IMG/VR virus record: IMGVR_UViG_3300033144_008156
Coordinates: 1-56,894 of that record
Source of the DNA: a virus
Direction: 5' to 3' (one strand)
DNA length: 56,894 nt
The notes under the pieces are model-generated. The model was not told where the DNA came from, searched no databases, and saw only the letters and a list, made by a program, of their open reading frames with translations. Each line of letters begins with the position of its first letter. The stretch's first letter is position 1. Shown here piece after piece: positions 40,255 through 45,386 of this stretch. Position numbers and translations under genes: made by a program.

Positions 40255-40695
40255 CTATAACCAAGAATTATCTTGACCATTAGTCTCAACTGGATCCGCT
40301 TCTACTTCTTCAGTTTTCACTTCCTCAGCTGCATTGTCATTAATGTCTTTTAATGTCTCTGTATCAGGAGTGGATACTTCTTCAGTATTTTCATCTTCCT
40401 GAGATGTTTCTTGTTCTAAATTATCAACAACAGTAAATTCTTTATCTTCTGTATCAATAATAGTATCATCTAATACTACAAAAGCCGGAGCTTTCTTTAC
40501 TATTGTCTTTCTGCCTTTTAGTTTTTCATGTTTAAATAATTCAAATATTTGAGATTTATTAAGATCATACTTTTCTTGTATACTTCCTATACTAGCGTCA
40601 TAATTTTTCTCACCTTTAGTTCTTGTATATCCCTCTTTTAGATATTGAAGAATGTCACTAATTTTAATTTCGATTGTTTCAGATTTTTTACTCAT
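40255..40695 (-). CDS. Small protein with acidic C-terminal tail, 146 aa
   Basis: The N-terminal 70 residues look like a helical DNA- or protein-binding domain (ISDILQYLKEGY, then KYDLNKSQIFELFKHEKLKGR, which could be a helix-turn-helix). From about residue 75 the protein is strongly acidic and low-complexity, ending in DNSWL. The acidic tail with an aromatic tip resembles tails of single-stranded-DNA-binding proteins or DNA mimics, but I cannot name a family. It overlaps the stop of the 348-aa gene by 4 bp (ATGA junction), so it is the last gene of the E2-JAB-E1-348 aa operon. It could be a substrate, a regulator or an unrelated passenger. Confidence 0.6.
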   Translation of the reverse strand: MSKKSETIEIKISDILQYLKEGYTRTKGEKNYDASIGSIQEKYDLNKSQIFELFKHEKLKGRKTIVKKAPAFVVLDDTIIDTEDKEFTVVDNLEQETSQEDENTEEVSTPDTETLKDINDNAAEEVKTEEVEADPVETNGQDNSWL

Positions 40696-41738
40696 TTTAA
40701 ATTTGATTTTATATTATTAATAGATTCTATTGAACAATCCATAAGCCACTTTCTATAGTCTCTTATGTTATTTAATTTTGGAGGAGTATAATTTTTAAAT
40801 AGTTCCTTAAAACTCTCCTTTTCTATTACAGGAACTCCAGCATCATACATAGGAATTAGAAATTGCTTTCTCATATAAGGTCTCAGGCCTCTCCACCTGC
40901 TCCTTGGAATATCAAATTCAGGATGTATCCAAATTTGTACTACTCTACGGTCTATTTCCTTACCTAATGCTATAGCCCATCTTATATATTCCATGTATTT
41001 AGGCTTAGTTACTAAACAAATTAAAGGATTTATATCTGCATTTCCAGATGGTGTATATGAAACATCTGCTAAGAAATAAGAACCTACTAAATACTTTATA
41101 ACATTACCATTAATCCATGTTCTAGTATGATGAAGTGCCCAACCACTTCCTCCTATAAAATGTCCTACTAGCTCTTTATATCTCCAATATTGAGGCCACC
41201 CATAACCATTGGTCAAATGACTTTCAGGTAATCCATAATCCATAGAAGACTCTATACTATCTTTAAATTCTTTTTTTACATCTTCTATTGCATTAATAAC
41301 TAACATTCCCAGATCTTCGTCAGGTACTGTAGAAACATCTACTCTGTAATGATGACTTCTAGGTTTGTTTTTACTAAAATAGTCACTCATTTGAGAATGT
41401 AAAGAATACCTTAATAGAGTTCCAAGAAGTCCGTCAAGTCTTTTATCAACTCCTTCTTCTCCTTCTATAGGTCCATATCTTCTGACAACAAAGTTTTTAT
41501 CCCCTAAAATATCTATTCTATCTTCTAGGCCCCTATAATGAGTATGCCACGAATTTGAAGGCCTCCAGGGAGTCATTCTATTAGCTGCAAATACAGGAAT
41601 AATTTCTTTACTATCATCTCCTATATAAGAAGAAGATTCTATAAATTTATTATCTCTCCATTCAGATCTTCCCCCATATAGTCCATCACTATGCCTGTGT
41701 GTAGCCCATTCCTCACGTGCTATATCTACATTTATCAT
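40692..41738 (-). CDS. Unrecognised 348-aa protein of the ubiquitin-like cassette
   Basis: The sequence matches no family I know. The N-terminal half is rich in H, R and W (EEWATHRHSD, NSWHTHYRG, RSHHYRVDV), which could bind metal or nucleotide, but no standard motif is complete. The middle has a hydrophobic core (GSGWALHHTRTWING, LVGSYFLADVSY), and the C-terminal region is basic and helical. The gene starts within the stop of the E1-like gene (ATGA overlap) and ends overlapping the 146-aa gene, so all three are co-translated. Position suggests a component that works with the E1, E2 and JAB proteins, such as a target, an adaptor or an E3-like factor. This is inference from context only. Confidence 0.6.
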   Translation of the reverse strand: MINVDIAREEWATHRHSDGLYGGRSEWRDNKFIESSSYIGDDSKEIIPVFAANRMTPWRPSNSWHTHYRGLEDRIDILGDKNFVVRRYGPIEGEEGVDKRLDGLLGTLLRYSLHSQMSDYFSKNKPRSHHYRVDVSTVPDEDLGMLVINAIEDVKKEFKDSIESSMDYGLPESHLTNGYGWPQYWRYKELVGHFIGGSGWALHHTRTWINGNVIKYLVGSYFLADVSYTPSGNADINPLICLVTKPKYMEYIRWAIALGKEIDRRVVQIWIHPEFDIPRSRWRGLRPYMRKQFLIPMYDAGVPVIEKESFKELFKNYTPPKLNNIRDYRKWLMDCSIESINNIKSNLK

Positions 41739-42412
41739 AATTTAATAGTATTAGTTAAAGTTGGAAGATCATAATACATTTTAAATGGAACTTCTCTAAA
41801 GTCTCCCTTATCTTTAAAGTTAGCTACATAATTATTAAACACAGATACCATATATCCTGCAATCATAGCTCCACAATGAGAAGTAGCTTTCATGGAACAT
41901 CTCTCTTCTTCCACTTCGCCATCCTCAAATAACTGCTCAGTTCTATATCTCTCTATGTTTTTAGGAACTACTGCAATTACTTGAAAATTTTCAGCAAGCA
42001 TTCTACCATCTATAAATATCTGTTTGTTAGGCACTTCACACCACCTATCAAACATTAATTTTCTAGATGCCATATTATCAAAGCAAGCAAAAACAGCAGG
42101 ACCTGATAAAGATCCTTCTTCGTACTTTCCCATTGATTCTATGGTATTTCCTGTAAAATCATAGACATGAGATGAAGTGGCTTCTGCTTTTTGCTGCCCT
42201 ATATTTCCTGAACTATACAATTGCCCTCCTAAATTAGTTTCATCTATAACATCATTATCATATAAGAAAATATTACATTCTTGTCTTCCTAGAAAGAAGC
42301 ATAGCCAGGATCCTATTCCTCCGGCTCCTCCTACTATTACATCTATCCCAGGATGATACCAAGAAGCATCAGAAAATCTGACACTTCTTGGATTTATTAC
42401 TGTTTTTTTCAT
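41735..42412 (-). CDS. E1/ThiF-like adenylyltransferase
   Basis: A Rossmann-type ATP-binding site is clear: VIVGGAGGIGSW (residues 26-36), then YDNDVIDETNLGGQLY with acidic residues at 52/54 and N60, and GQQKAEA with K75. This is the ThiF/MoeB/E1 family, which adenylates the C-terminus of ubiquitin-like proteins. The usual arginine of the NLxRQ motif is replaced by glycine (NLGGQ), an unusual loss. C172 and C180 in CSMKATSHC are candidates for a thioester cysteine or metal site. At 225 aa it is close to the minimal E1 core, without extra domains. It lies 12 bp after the JAB gene and overlaps the 348-aa gene, in an operon with E2-like and JAB proteins. Confidence 0.85.
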   Translation of the reverse strand: MKKTVINPRSVRFSDASWYHPGIDVIVGGAGGIGSWLCFFLGRQECNIFLYDNDVIDETNLGGQLYSSGNIGQQKAEATSSHVYDFTGNTIESMGKYEEGSLSGPAVFACFDNMASRKLMFDRWCEVPNKQIFIDGRMLAENFQVIAVVPKNIERYRTEQLFEDGEVEEERCSMKATSHCGAMIAGYMVSVFNNYVANFKDKGDFREVPFKMYYDLPTLTNTIKL

Positions 42413-42423
42413 AATTACTTATT

Positions 42424-43647
42424 TTACCATTTATTTGACTCTTTATACCAGCTTTTATTTCCATCATTTCCAGCTAATGGATCTCCAGCTATTTGATATT
42501 CACACAACATATTACAAATTTCATCTATAAAATGACATCTCTGATAAGAATTAGGCCCATAAGTACTTGAAGTCCATTCTTCCAGTACTGAAATAGAATC
42601 ATCCACTATTTCATCACGAGAGCTCATTGGAACTACCATAGCTGATAATATAGTATCAACATTATCTTCCATATAAGTCATATACAAATCTTTATCAGTC
42701 ATTGTCATATTCTCATACTTCTTTGTATATTCTTTAACTGTCTCCTCCAAAAGAGCGTGAGAAGCATAAGATGGATGCTCAGGTTCTATACGAAGTAATT
42801 TTATTAAAAATCCTCTTACCGTAATAGTATAATCAGCTTTTTTATCATACCCATTCTCCCATAAATCTAATTGTTTAGTAGATCTTCTTGCAGAAGGATT
42901 TACTGAATACCCATTATTATAGCCAGAATTTCCATTAGATTTAGACCAGCCATAACTAGAATAAGAACTTTTTTCCTTTGCTTGTCGTTTCTTTAGTTTT
43001 AACAATTCATTAATAAATGAAGGATCTGGTTCAACCTCAGGAATTTTAATATCTAATGCTACAGTATATACTATGGTCTCCTCTCTCTGCTGCTTATGTT
43101 CTTGAACAGTTTTTTTAGAAGATTTTAATCCTGTATATTCTAAAACACTATTTTCTTTAACACTTCTAAGTCCTCTTATACACATTTTAGCACAATACTT
43201 TCCCTCAAAATTGACTATTAGAGATAAATAATAAGCGTGATTGTCTATATTATCTCTTAATTCTTGTAAATCTGTTCCTGAAAAGTAAGCTTTCATATTA
43301 TGATGAGTATGAATATGTCCCAATCTCCACTCTTCTTTTAGTGCATCAGGATAAAAATCATACATATCTAAAGTATTTTCATCATAGTCATATTCTGTAT
43401 AACCAGGACTACCTATATCCATAGGAAACATTCCTTTAGCTGTAATTTGTAATTTAGTAGGATCAGAAATGTCTCCTTTATCTATTGTATATAACAATAC
43501 TCCAGACCATTCTGTACTACCTGCAAATGAATGAAATGTATCTATTTGCGTTTTTAATTCCGGACTTAAGTGCAAAACACCCTCCTTTTTACTCTCTATT
43601 ATAGGGTAATCAATTACCGCTCTTGTTTCTTTCTTATTATAATTCAT
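42424..43647 (-). CDS. JAMM/JAB-domain isopeptidase, two-domain, 407 aa
   Basis: The N-terminal domain has a complete JAMM metal-binding motif: E46 (STEWSGVLL), H113-x-H115, then seven residues, S123 and D126 (GHIHTHHNMKAYFSGTD). Such Zn proteases remove ubiquitin-like proteins from targets or trim their precursors; in phages and PRTRC-type cassettes they accompany ThiF proteins. A Ser/Gly/Tyr/Asn-rich linker (about 205-265) joins a second domain (about 275-407) that I do not recognise. The start overlaps the stop of the E2-like gene by 4 bp, and the E1-like gene follows at 12 bp. Function inferred: processing of the Ub-like protein encoded at 44907-45386, and/or deconjugation. Confidence 0.88.
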   Translation of the reverse strand: MNYNKKETRAVIDYPIIESKKEGVLHLSPELKTQIDTFHSFAGSTEWSGVLLYTIDKGDISDPTKLQITAKGMFPMDIGSPGYTEYDYDENTLDMYDFYPDALKEEWRLGHIHTHHNMKAYFSGTDLQELRDNIDNHAYYLSLIVNFEGKYCAKMCIRGLRSVKENSVLEYTGLKSSKKTVQEHKQQREETIVYTVALDIKIPEVEPDPSFINELLKLKKRQAKEKSSYSSYGWSKSNGNSGYNNGYSVNPSARRSTKQLDLWENGYDKKADYTITVRGFLIKLLRIEPEHPSYASHALLEETVKEYTKKYENMTMTDKDLYMTYMEDNVDTILSAMVVPMSSRDEIVDDSISVLEEWTSSTYGPNSYQRCHFIDEICNMLCEYQIAGDPLAGNDGNKSWYKESNKW

Positions 43648-44846
43648 ACTCCGTATTTTTTAATAAAATAATGATTAGTTTTTTTAATTAATTTGCCAGC
43701 TACATACTTAGTTAAATCAGGATGAGCTACTTCTAATAATTGAGACTCTGAATAATCCTCATTCAGTGCTATTACTTTAAAGAATATCTCTTCTCCTTTA
43801 AAAGTAAGAATGGATTTTTTACTTCCTTTTTCATTTCCCTCTTCAATCCATTCTAAAATAGAACTTCTAGAAACATCTCCGTGAAGATATTCTCCCGCTG
43901 ATGTTTTCTTTATTTTAGTAATCCCCTTTATTTCACTAATAATAGGCTCTAGAAGAAAATTTTCAACTTTAAACCGTTTATTAATATTATCAAATTTCAA
44001 AGGAAACTTTTCAAGAGCTTCAACTATTATCTTGTATTCTTTATGCTTTTGGCTCCTCTGCAGATACACATGTAAATCTCCAATAGCAATATTCTCTATT
44101 CTCATATAAGGACCTCCCTGTAAGGACTCCCATCTTACATAAGCATCTAATTGATATAATAGTAATTCAAATGCTTCTTGAGTAAACTCGTGCCCTTTCA
44201 TTGCCCATTCAGTATTTGCCTGGGCAAACTCTCCACTCCCTAAACAAAAAGGATTCCAGAGAGGACCTGAAGTATAAGATGATGAAGGTAAATGAGAGTG
44301 AGCATAGCCGCATTTATATTCTACATAACTTAAAAGACCTCTTATTCCTTTTAAGTTATCTTTTATAGTAAATCCTTTATTAAAAGTCCATTTAACATAC
44401 AAATCATTAATTTCATGTCTTGCCTCTTTACCATTAGTAATTTCAATTTTAGGAAATTTAATAATTAATGTATAGACAGTTGCACCTTTAGATGGGAGTA
44501 TTAAATCCCATTTATACGGAAATATAGCTTGTAAAGATTCTTCAACTTTCTTTAATATAACTCTATCTTGCTTTTGATCCTCTTCTCGTGATAGTTTTAC
44601 CTTCTGTTCATACTGAGCAATTTCCTCTTTAGGCAATAATTGAAAGTTATGTCGAGCTTCACTATCATTAATTGTAAGAGATTTTCCATTTTCTATACTA
44701 TACACTTCTATATTATTAAAAGTATTACCAGGTCTATATGTCCAATCTTTTTCTACTATATAGACTCCAGCATATTCTCCTTCTTTTAAGTGTATGTATT
44801 CATCCTTGGAAAATGTCTTTTTTTGTTTTATTTCCAGTATTGTCAT
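43644..44846 (-). CDS. E2-like (UBC-fold) candidate conjugating protein, 400 aa
   Basis: The central region (about 115-215) has the look of a prokaryotic E2: strands (VYTLIIKFPKIEIT, then EINDLYVKWTF), a glycine-containing helix start, and YAHSHLP (H183, H185). These are followed after about 15 residues by FCLGSGE with C201. In eukaryotic E2s an HPN motif precedes the active-site Cys in a GxxCL context; the HSHL...FCLG arrangement fits this and prokaryotic E2-like families of ThiF cassettes. The first 100 residues and the C-terminal 180 residues are extensions that I do not recognise. It is the first gene after the terminator following the Ub-like gene and is coupled to JAB by an ATGA overlap. 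No sequence search was possible. Confidence 0.65.
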   Translation of the reverse strand: MTILEIKQKKTFSKDEYIHLKEGEYAGVYIVEKDWTYRPGNTFNNIEVYSIENGKSLTINDSEARHNFQLLPKEEIAQYEQKVKLSREEDQKQDRVILKKVEESLQAIFPYKWDLILPSKGATVYTLIIKFPKIEITNGKEARHEINDLYVKWTFNKGFTIKDNLKGIRGLLSYVEYKCGYAHSHLPSSSYTSGPLWNPFCLGSGEFAQANTEWAMKGHEFTQEAFELLLYQLDAYVRWESLQGGPYMRIENIAIGDLHVYLQRSQKHKEYKIIVEALEKFPLKFDNINKRFKVENFLLEPIISEIKGITKIKKTSAGEYLHGDVSRSSILEWIEEGNEKGSKKSILTFKGEEIFFKVIALNEDYSESQLLEVAHPDLTKYVAGKLIKKTNHYFIKKYGV

Positions 44847-44860
44847 TTTTTCTATTTAAT

Positions 44861-44892
44861 AAAAAAAGAGGAGCCCTTAAGAACTCCTCTTT
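44861..44892 (-). terminator. Intrinsic terminator after the Ub-like gene
   Basis: A 9-bp stem AAAGAGGAG/CTCCTCTTT (44865-44873 with 44884-44892) is followed on the - strand by an uninterrupted U-run from A861-A867. It lies between the Ub-like and E2-like genes, so it can give more Ub-like than enzyme transcript by partial read-through. Confidence 0.85.
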
Positions 44893-44906
44893 CTATAATT
44901 ATACAA

Positions 44907-45386
44907 TTACATACTTAACTCTTCTGCTAATTCAGCAGCTTCTAATGCAAGTTTTTGATCTGCTTTAGACAATTCCTTAGCTTTGCTAGGACGAAGACTA
45001 TCCATTAATTCAGAAAATTCTTGTTTATATCCTTCAACTTGTGCTATTACTGGATCATTTACTGTAGTATCCCATTCAGCTTCTTTTACTTTTCTTACTT
45101 TTACAGTTCTTCCAGATCTAACTTTTTCTGGATATAAAAACAAAGTGAAATCCTGATCAGGAAGTTTAGCTCCACCACTTTCAAGAGTATTCCTAGTTTC
45201 TCTAATAACAGCTCTTGTATTACCTACATTAGATAATTCCTTCTTTAACTCTCCCCAGGTCTTTGCAGAAGTCTCTATAGTCTGAGTTGCTCTCTCTTGC
45301 GTAGACCATATAGTTACCTTTCGTGTTTCCGTATTAGTTTCAGTTGTCTTTTTATTTACTGCTACTTTTTTAGTTTTTGTAGTCAT
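44907..45386 (-). CDS. Candidate ubiquitin-like beta-grasp protein with C-terminal extension, 159 aa
   Basis: After a basic, Thr/Lys-rich tail of about 20 residues, residues 22-92 follow the beta-grasp order: strand RKVTIWS, strand TQTIETS, helix TWGELKKELSNV, strand RAVIRETRN, a GG turn, and LPDQDFTLFLYPEKVRSG. The LxDxDFxLFLxPxKxxSG ending resembles phage and prokaryotic Ub-like proteins. A further 67 residues follow the SG at 91-92, mostly charged helix, so a protease would need to trim the protein to expose SG; the JAB protein in the neighbouring operon is an obvious candidate. Without structural prediction the fold is a pattern-based call. Its own terminator follows it, and a 91-aa gene precedes it. 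Confidence 0.6.
   Translation of the reverse strand: MTTKTKKVAVNKKTTETNTETRKVTIWSTQERATQTIETSAKTWGELKKELSNVGNTRAVIRETRNTLESGGAKLPDQDFTLFLYPEKVRSGRTVKVRKVKEAEWDTTVNDPVIAQVEGYKQEFSELMDSLRPSKAKELSKADQKLALEAAELAEELSM

Follow-up and report, generated by a model that had tools for sequence, protein, structure and literature searches.

A predicted ubiquitin-like conjugation cassette carried by crAss-like phages

Background

In Bil (BilABCD), a bacterial anti-phage system of ubiquitin-like protein (Ubl) conjugation, a JAMM protease exposes the C-terminal Gly of the Ubl; BilA contains two Ubl domains, BilB, the E2, bears a CEHH motif in which the His residues follow the Cys, and BilD is a double-domain adenylating enzyme (E1) of 450 amino acids (PMC11354881). 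The type 6d operon groups an E1, an E2, a Ubl with a conserved C-terminal Gly, a JAMM protease and extra proteins, and lambda-type phages encode, as tail assembly protein I/K, a Ub-like protein with a conserved Gly and a JAB (PMC1779556). Here we describe a cassette of five genes in a virus, IMG/VR record IMGVR_UViG_3300033144_008156, positions 1 to 56,894 (this whole stretch of 56,894 bp is called the window hereafter). At the level of gene anatomy, the evidence for a complete ubiquitin-like cassette is very strong, and we consider it likely that crAss-like phages use it as a self-contained pathway for conjugating a Ubl, whose catalytic steps, target and role we infer.

To our knowledge, the prokaryotic Ubl pathways studied so far either are owned by the host (CBASS, Bil) or have been predicted for mobile elements such as plasmids (PRTRC-like, PRTRC and the type 6d operon being of the same kind). 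Here, a complete set is virus-borne, and it is kept in over a hundred divergent genomes.

Gene order and distribution

Five open reading frames (ORFs) had been proposed by the initial annotation of the window, and all were recovered on the minus strand: a Ubl modifier precursor of 159 amino acids (44907..45386), an E2 (UBC)-like protein of 400 amino acids (43644..44846), a JAMM/MPN+ protease (JAB) of 407 amino acids (42424..43647), a minimal E1/ThiF adenylating enzyme of 225 amino acids (41735..42412) and a fifth protein of 348 amino acids (40692..41738). In Pfam, the E1 matches ThiF (E 1e-14) and the protease matches Prok-JAB weakly, under the cut-off of that family (E 3e-4). The searches with family hidden Markov models that had been advised are thus positive for ThiF and, weakly, for Prok-JAB, while the 159-, 400- and 348-residue proteins match no family in Pfam, NCBIfam or PADLOC. 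PHROGs hold the first four cassette genes solely as 'unknown function' (PHROG 15560 for the Ubl). Since no Ubl or E2 family is named by these libraries, confirming the proposed functions required a comparison of relatives.

Scanning viral contigs with profiles brought up 160 loci; when the window ThiF was used as a single sequence the scan returned no match, and alignment-based scans succeeded. Some loci are repeats of one contig, and 123-131 sequences per gene were left once identical ones were removed. Protein identities among loci are often near 20%, and the order Ubl-E2-JAB-ThiF is found in 156 of 172 loci, a recurrence that led us to reject a chance assembly of unrelated genes. Recruitment by ThiF alone, which is specific to this ThiF subfamily and gives counts uninformative on other ThiF proteins, yielded a complete set in 75 of 80 loci; three others are cut by the contig end (L040, L050, L061), and in two (L063, L070) the E2 has diverged beyond the reach of the E2 profile. 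Apart from these, no relative was found with a JAB/ThiF pair devoid of Ubl or E2, in keeping with the complete set initially claimed.

By tblastn, the cassette was found in crAss001 (where its four genes are gp79-gp76), the PhiCrAssBcn phages, DAC15/17, several uncultured Steigviridae, Flavobacterium phages Fpv1-FpV21 and others, so that the proposed survey did reveal the same arrangement in other crAss-like phages; the carriers come from gut, water and other environments. Searches with the ThiF and E2 profiles were positive for crAss001 and FpV4, and negative for Carjivirus, cr8_1 and Rudgehvirus (all Intestiviridae) and for cr1_1 (Suoliviridae). As these four phages of other families are negative, the cassette is not common to all crAss-like phages; from these comparisons it is apparently confined to Steigviridae, Fipvunavirus and uncultured relatives. 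A plasmid search with ThiF found none, and among genome contigs of GTDB only two good ThiF matches were obtained, both on short contigs binned into metagenome-assembled genomes (Clostridium sp. and Spirochaetia), so nothing suggests that this ThiF family resides in cellular genomes. The initial annotation was aware of no description in crAss-like phages, and our literature search, with subscription papers and preprints outside its scope, was likewise empty: the main texts of a crAss-like genome survey (PMC7886860), a Crassvirales review (PMC10136315) and the crAss001 paper (PMC6235969), supplements being outside the scope, mention neither ubiquitin nor ThiF.

The putative modifier and its predicted C-terminal glycine

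The AlphaFold2 model of the window Ubl, built with 66 relatives, has a pLDDT (predicted local distance difference test) of 82.5 overall and of about 95 over residues 21-80. It comprises an N-terminal extension, a beta-grasp domain at about 21-92, a low-confidence linker from about residue 91 and a helical tail of 67 amino acids; the domain is of the beta-beta-alpha-beta-beta type, with strands at 22-28, 33-39, 57-61 and 80-86 and a helix at 44-50. Foldseek and VIA-align mostly return ubiquitin-like folds for this model, and its residues 22-91 superpose on ubiquitin 1-76 (1ubq) with a Z of 7.3 and a root mean square deviation of 2.1 over 66 residues, which upholds the beta-grasp fold that had been suspected for this protein.

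Just beyond the last strand lies Gly92 (codon 45111..45113, minus strand), the predicted mature C-terminus and JAMM cleavage site. It is the top-conserved residue of the Ubl, being Gly in 129 of 131 non-redundant relatives (98%). In about two dozen relatives, some of them near-identical, the Ubl gene has only 72-106 codons and stops 1-5 codons past the Gly, the proteins ending in K-S-G or K-A-G (or similar) followed by one to five residues. Most of these short genes are followed by a separate ORF of 25-131 amino acids, often overlapping as TAATG, and some of the separate tails are weakly similar to the fused ones; in L085, L075, L041 and L115 the Ubl is short and a tail gene is missing. Two further short Ubls, those of L006 and L124, are followed by an HNH or GIY-YIG-like homing gene and for that reason were left out of this count of natural splits. 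Because such splits fall so close behind the Gly, the modifier unit ends there, as had been proposed for residue 92. No member of the family has Gly as its very last residue, and each therefore needs a protease cut to expose it, which is the role expected of the JAMM protein.

One Ubl (L004 2320-3243, apparently from phage cr126_1, judging by its tail) matches the C-terminal domain of ribosomal L7/L12 (Pfam E 5e-12), and two others match SAP, which makes the cut-off tails a diverse set.

The E2-like protein

The AlphaFold2 model of the E2-like protein (62 relatives; pLDDT 83.9, predicted template modelling score 0.79) consists of a long helix, a four-stranded meander at 113-173, a His/Cys loop and helices. 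All 50 of the 50 rows returned by VIA belong to UBC, UEV or RWD-type folds, with Z values of 5-6, and the top Foldseek matches are UBC proteins, none of them at a significant E-value. A UBC fold, as initially predicted, is convincing in spite of the modest scores in each list because one fold dominates both lists and an invariant Cys follows the meander. The putative active site is formed by His183/His185 and the putative catalytic Cys201 (codon 44244..44246, minus strand); Cys201 and His185 are each conserved in 99% of relatives and Ser184 in 96%. Spacing between His and Cys varies: L053 has HPHSSREGVMCLG, and the diverged E2 of L063, which matches nothing in PDB, Pfam or phage proteins, still has HPHINGNFGSYCLGE. 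In divergent members the motif reads HPH-x7-CLG, close to the HPN-x7-CL motif of eukaryotic E2s.

A second block, WESLxGGPY (residues 239-247, WESLQGGPY in the window, 44106-44132, minus strand), is conserved on par with Cys201, at 99-100% for Glu240, Ser241, Gly244 and Pro246, and falls outside the known UBC active site. Viral structure predictions include the same E2-like protein from other crAss-like phages, under the name 'uncharacterized'.

Elsewhere, in the jumbo Xanthomonas phage PhiXhv-12 (L206 3169-7419), ThiF stands beside a protein of 892 residues that contains an E2-like motif, IHPHMAVPSSQESHGSLCLG, and whose C-terminus is rich in Cys and probably binds zinc; this pair is possibly an independent phage Ubl system.

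The protease and the adenylating enzyme

All JAMM ligands announced by the initial annotation are present in the window protease (Glu46, His113, His115, Ser123 and Asp126, that is, a Glu and HxHx(7)SxxD), and they are conserved at 94-98% in 130 relatives. Its identification of the 225-residue protein as ThiF/E1, which the Pfam match supports, is extended by profile matches to UBA5 (E 1.6e-12, the best among solved structures), MccB, MoeB, ThiF and the ubiquitin and NEDD8 E1s. The E1 motifs are a GxGGIGS loop, Asp54, Lys75, Asp112 and Cys172. E1 residues are conserved at 94-100% overall, and at 100% for Asp54, Asn60, Gln64, Lys75, Asp112 and Arg117. Cys172 (codon 41897-41899, minus strand) is 96% conserved; judging by the motifs, its position is presumably that of the C-terminal conserved Cys of ThiF, MoeB and UBA5, which we treat as a lead.

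Comparison with described systems

A close parallel is Bil, which has the same four activities in the same order, Ubl-E2-JAMM-E1. The differences are that the phage modifier has one beta-grasp domain whereas BilA has two; that the His residues of the phage E2 precede Cys201, with no conserved His after it, whereas the CEHH of BilB places a Glu and two His after the Cys; that the phage E1 is a single domain of 225 amino acids whereas BilD joins an inactive and an active adenylation domain in about 450; and that Bil is carried by the host. The PADLOC BilD model meets the phage E1 at E 0.065. Against two Bil-type operons of Bacteroidota, the phage Ubl, E2 and JAB show no profile match, and the E1 matches at 86-88% probability. 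These two operons (L207 2168-5014 and L208 2141-4832) lie in genomes of the phylum infected by crAss-like phages, and host and phage may both use such tagging.

With PRTRC and type 6d operons the cassette shares an E1, an E2, a Ubl with a conserved Gly, a JAMM protease and an extra gene. When 12 PRTRC loci were compared by profile, the phage E1 matched PRTRC ThiF at 98.6% probability (E 1.4e-15, 226 columns), while PRTRC_B and PRTRC_C gave less than 1% against the phage E2 and Ubl. The NCBIfam PRTRC ThiF model scores 31 bits on the window E1, for a cut-off of 145 bits, and no NCBIfam match to PRTRC_B or PRTRC_C homologues was seen. The order differs as well, being E-C-F-B-ThiF in Bacteroidota sets, and the PRTRC Ubl shown ends directly in Gly.

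In the eukaryotic UFM1/UBA5 pathway, UFM1 has a single C-terminal Gly followed by a short extension that is cut off, as in the phage Ubl, and UBA5 is the closest E1 among solved structures; the E2 (UFC1) and protease (UFSP) of that pathway are nevertheless unlike those of the phage, whose protease is a JAMM. The lambda I/K proteins resemble the cassette in being a phage-borne Ub-like protein with a conserved Gly together with a JAB, but they belong to tail genes and come without E1 or E2. To judge from these comparisons, the cassette appears to work like the Bil and PRTRC systems, yet belongs to neither as tested. Ordinary thiamine or cofactor biosynthesis, the label now found in records, was rejected in view of the E2, the JAMM protease and the cut-off extension of the Ubl.

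Proposed function and alternatives

In the conjugation pathway that we propose, the JAMM protease would cut the 159-residue precursor after Gly92, giving a modifier of about 72 structured residues, and the ThiF-like E1 would adenylate the Gly92 carboxylate. The E1 would then probably hold the modifier as a thioester on Cys172 and pass it to Cys201 of the E2-like protein, which would attach it to an amine on its target. Removal of the modifier could fall to the same JAMM protease, and the product of the fifth gene, a candidate accessory or targeting factor, may select targets. Because genes for a primase, a RusA resolvase, a Sak4 annealase and an exonuclease adjoin the cassette, the neighbourhood suggests phage DNA replication or recombination proteins as targets, and a cassette embedded in a conserved block of replication genes is more readily seen as a core function than as an optional counter-defence device. 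That a large crAss-like clade runs a complete reversible pathway, with new Ubl and E2 families, within its core replication programme, modifying its own replication and recombination proteins, is a proposal we make tentatively, rating it slightly below even. If true, a virus of bacteria would run an E1-E2-Ubl-protease pathway for its own benefit and not for host defence, in a way that could be likened to SUMO and ubiquitin acting on PCNA.

Several points weigh against this scheme. No sequence profile ties the Ubl or the E2 to a known family, the former matching nothing in PDB and the latter giving chance matches only, and the fold scores of the E2 are modest (best Foldseek E 0.27; VIA Z 6.0, in the unspecific range of the tool). 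In the E1, the usual NxxRQ motif is without its Arg and reads NLGGQ. Two Ubls (L063 5375-5911 and L070 5365-5901) carry Ala at the position of Gly92, even though L063 retains its E2 Cys and its JAMM ligands. Finally, the gene neighbourhood is the sole ground for a replication target.

The initial annotation conjectured a role in modifying host or virion proteins, or in counter-defence. Conjugation could indeed be directed at host proteins instead, for example immune proteins or RNA polymerase, for counter-defence or takeover of the host. This would be a sub-case of conjugation, competing solely with the replication-target part of our proposal, and it draws on the demonstration by bacterial CBASS and Bil that Ubl conjugation matters in phage conflict (PMC10097602, PMC11354881), as well as on the gene order shared with Bil; we think it rather unlikely, given that the cassette is a fixed core block beside replication genes across environments, unlike most counter-defence genes, which are sporadic. 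Capture by phages of a PRTRC or Bil locus, with no new biology, would account for that same order and for the E1 match to PRTRC ThiF. It is the least probable of the explanations considered, as the Ubl and E2 lack a profile match to PRTRC_C and PRTRC_B or to the two Bil-type operons, and the E1 lacks the double domain of BilD.

A different chemistry could also be imagined. The E1 is minimal and of the ThiF type, nucleotide-metabolism genes lie near the cassette in relatives, and JAMM proteases with Gly-ended beta-grasp proteins are known in sulfur-carrier operons (PMC1779556), so the E1 might make a Ubl thiocarboxylate, as for ThiS, MoaD and CysO, from which sulfur would pass to a metabolite, a tRNA or a nucleotide, with the JAMM protease trimming or recycling the carrier in the style of the CysO pathway. 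Such a sulfur carrier is highly improbable: a UBC-like protein with near-invariant His/Cys would be purposeless in sulfur transfer and is always present, the JAMM and E2 are kept as strictly as the E1, the E1 has no rhodanese domain, and no rhodanese or sulfurtransferase gene was seen within the cassette. The invariant WESLxGGPY of the E2, which hints at unusual chemistry or binding, and the varied domains of the Ubl tails (SAP-like, L7/L12-like) would suit an E2 that puts the Ubl on a non-protein molecule (DNA, nucleotide or lipid), or a non-conjugating switch whose output is the JAMM cleavage itself. A pure switch would not need E1 and E2, however, and in some phages a single residue is all that could be released; both variants are improbable.

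The predicted conjugation cassette adds Ubl and E2 families absent from Pfam, and its members are relatives through which the origin of the ubiquitin pathway can be studied. Its genes are presently labelled 'thiamine biosynthesis protein', 'metalloprotease' or 'hypothetical'. Culturable carriers exist (crAss001 on Bacteroides intestinalis, DAC15 on B. thetaiotaomicron and the Fpv phages on Flavobacterium psychrophilum), and the cassette offers a directly testable system for what Ubl conjugation gives a virus.

Fifth gene, expression layout and genomic context

By single linkage, the gene right after ThiF, 40692..41738 in the window, belongs to one homology cluster in 82 of 122 distinct loci; the window gene and gp75 of crAss001 are among them, and identity is very low. 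This gene has no Pfam match and no relation to the E2 or Ubl profiles. Several of its relatives (among them L001 6663-7748, L079 4163-5311 and L089 8666-9799) end in acidic, VIELIDDTE-like sequences (VINLIDDTE or IELIDDTE), which resemble SUMO-interacting motifs, a resemblance that would be neat if such ends bound the Ubl.

In the window, overlaps of 4 nucleotides join E2 to JAB, ThiF to the fifth gene and the fifth gene to the next one, and gaps of 11 and 60 nucleotides separate JAB from ThiF and Ubl from E2. The latter gap contains a terminator-like hairpin (44860..44894, minus strand), a 14-bp stem followed by a T run. Among relatives, the median spacing is a gap of 63 nucleotides for Ubl-E2 and overlaps for E2-JAB (-56) and JAB-ThiF (-4), and such a hairpin is present in the Ubl-E2 gap of 91 of 123 non-redundant loci, the window included, versus 15% of shuffled gaps. 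With a terminator after the Ubl gene, this layout fits the production of more modifier than enzymes.

The window virus is crAss-like, since the matches of its 2604-residue gene product are giant proteins associated with RNA polymerase, from Carjivirus communis and further crAss-like phages. Its minus-strand replication block (DNA polymerase, helicase, DnaB-like helicase, Sak4 annealase, primase and RusA resolvase) is followed by the cassette and then by an exonuclease VIII-like nuclease gene; in relatives, too, replication genes adjoin the cassette. Ten records keep the order primase, Ubl, E2, JAB, ThiF and gene 5, with uracil-DNA glycosylase (UDG) next in nine of them; in FpV4 a gene labelled UDG precedes the Ubl, and the unlabelled DAC15 flanks were read from position and size.

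Some cassette genes are interrupted. Group I introns (Rfam) lie between JAB halves, near the JAMM motif codons, in L042 (6702-7155), L128 (9164-9410) and L132 (10088-10390); L100 and L129 have a split ThiF gene, and in cr106_1 (L006) an HNH gene divides the Ubl.

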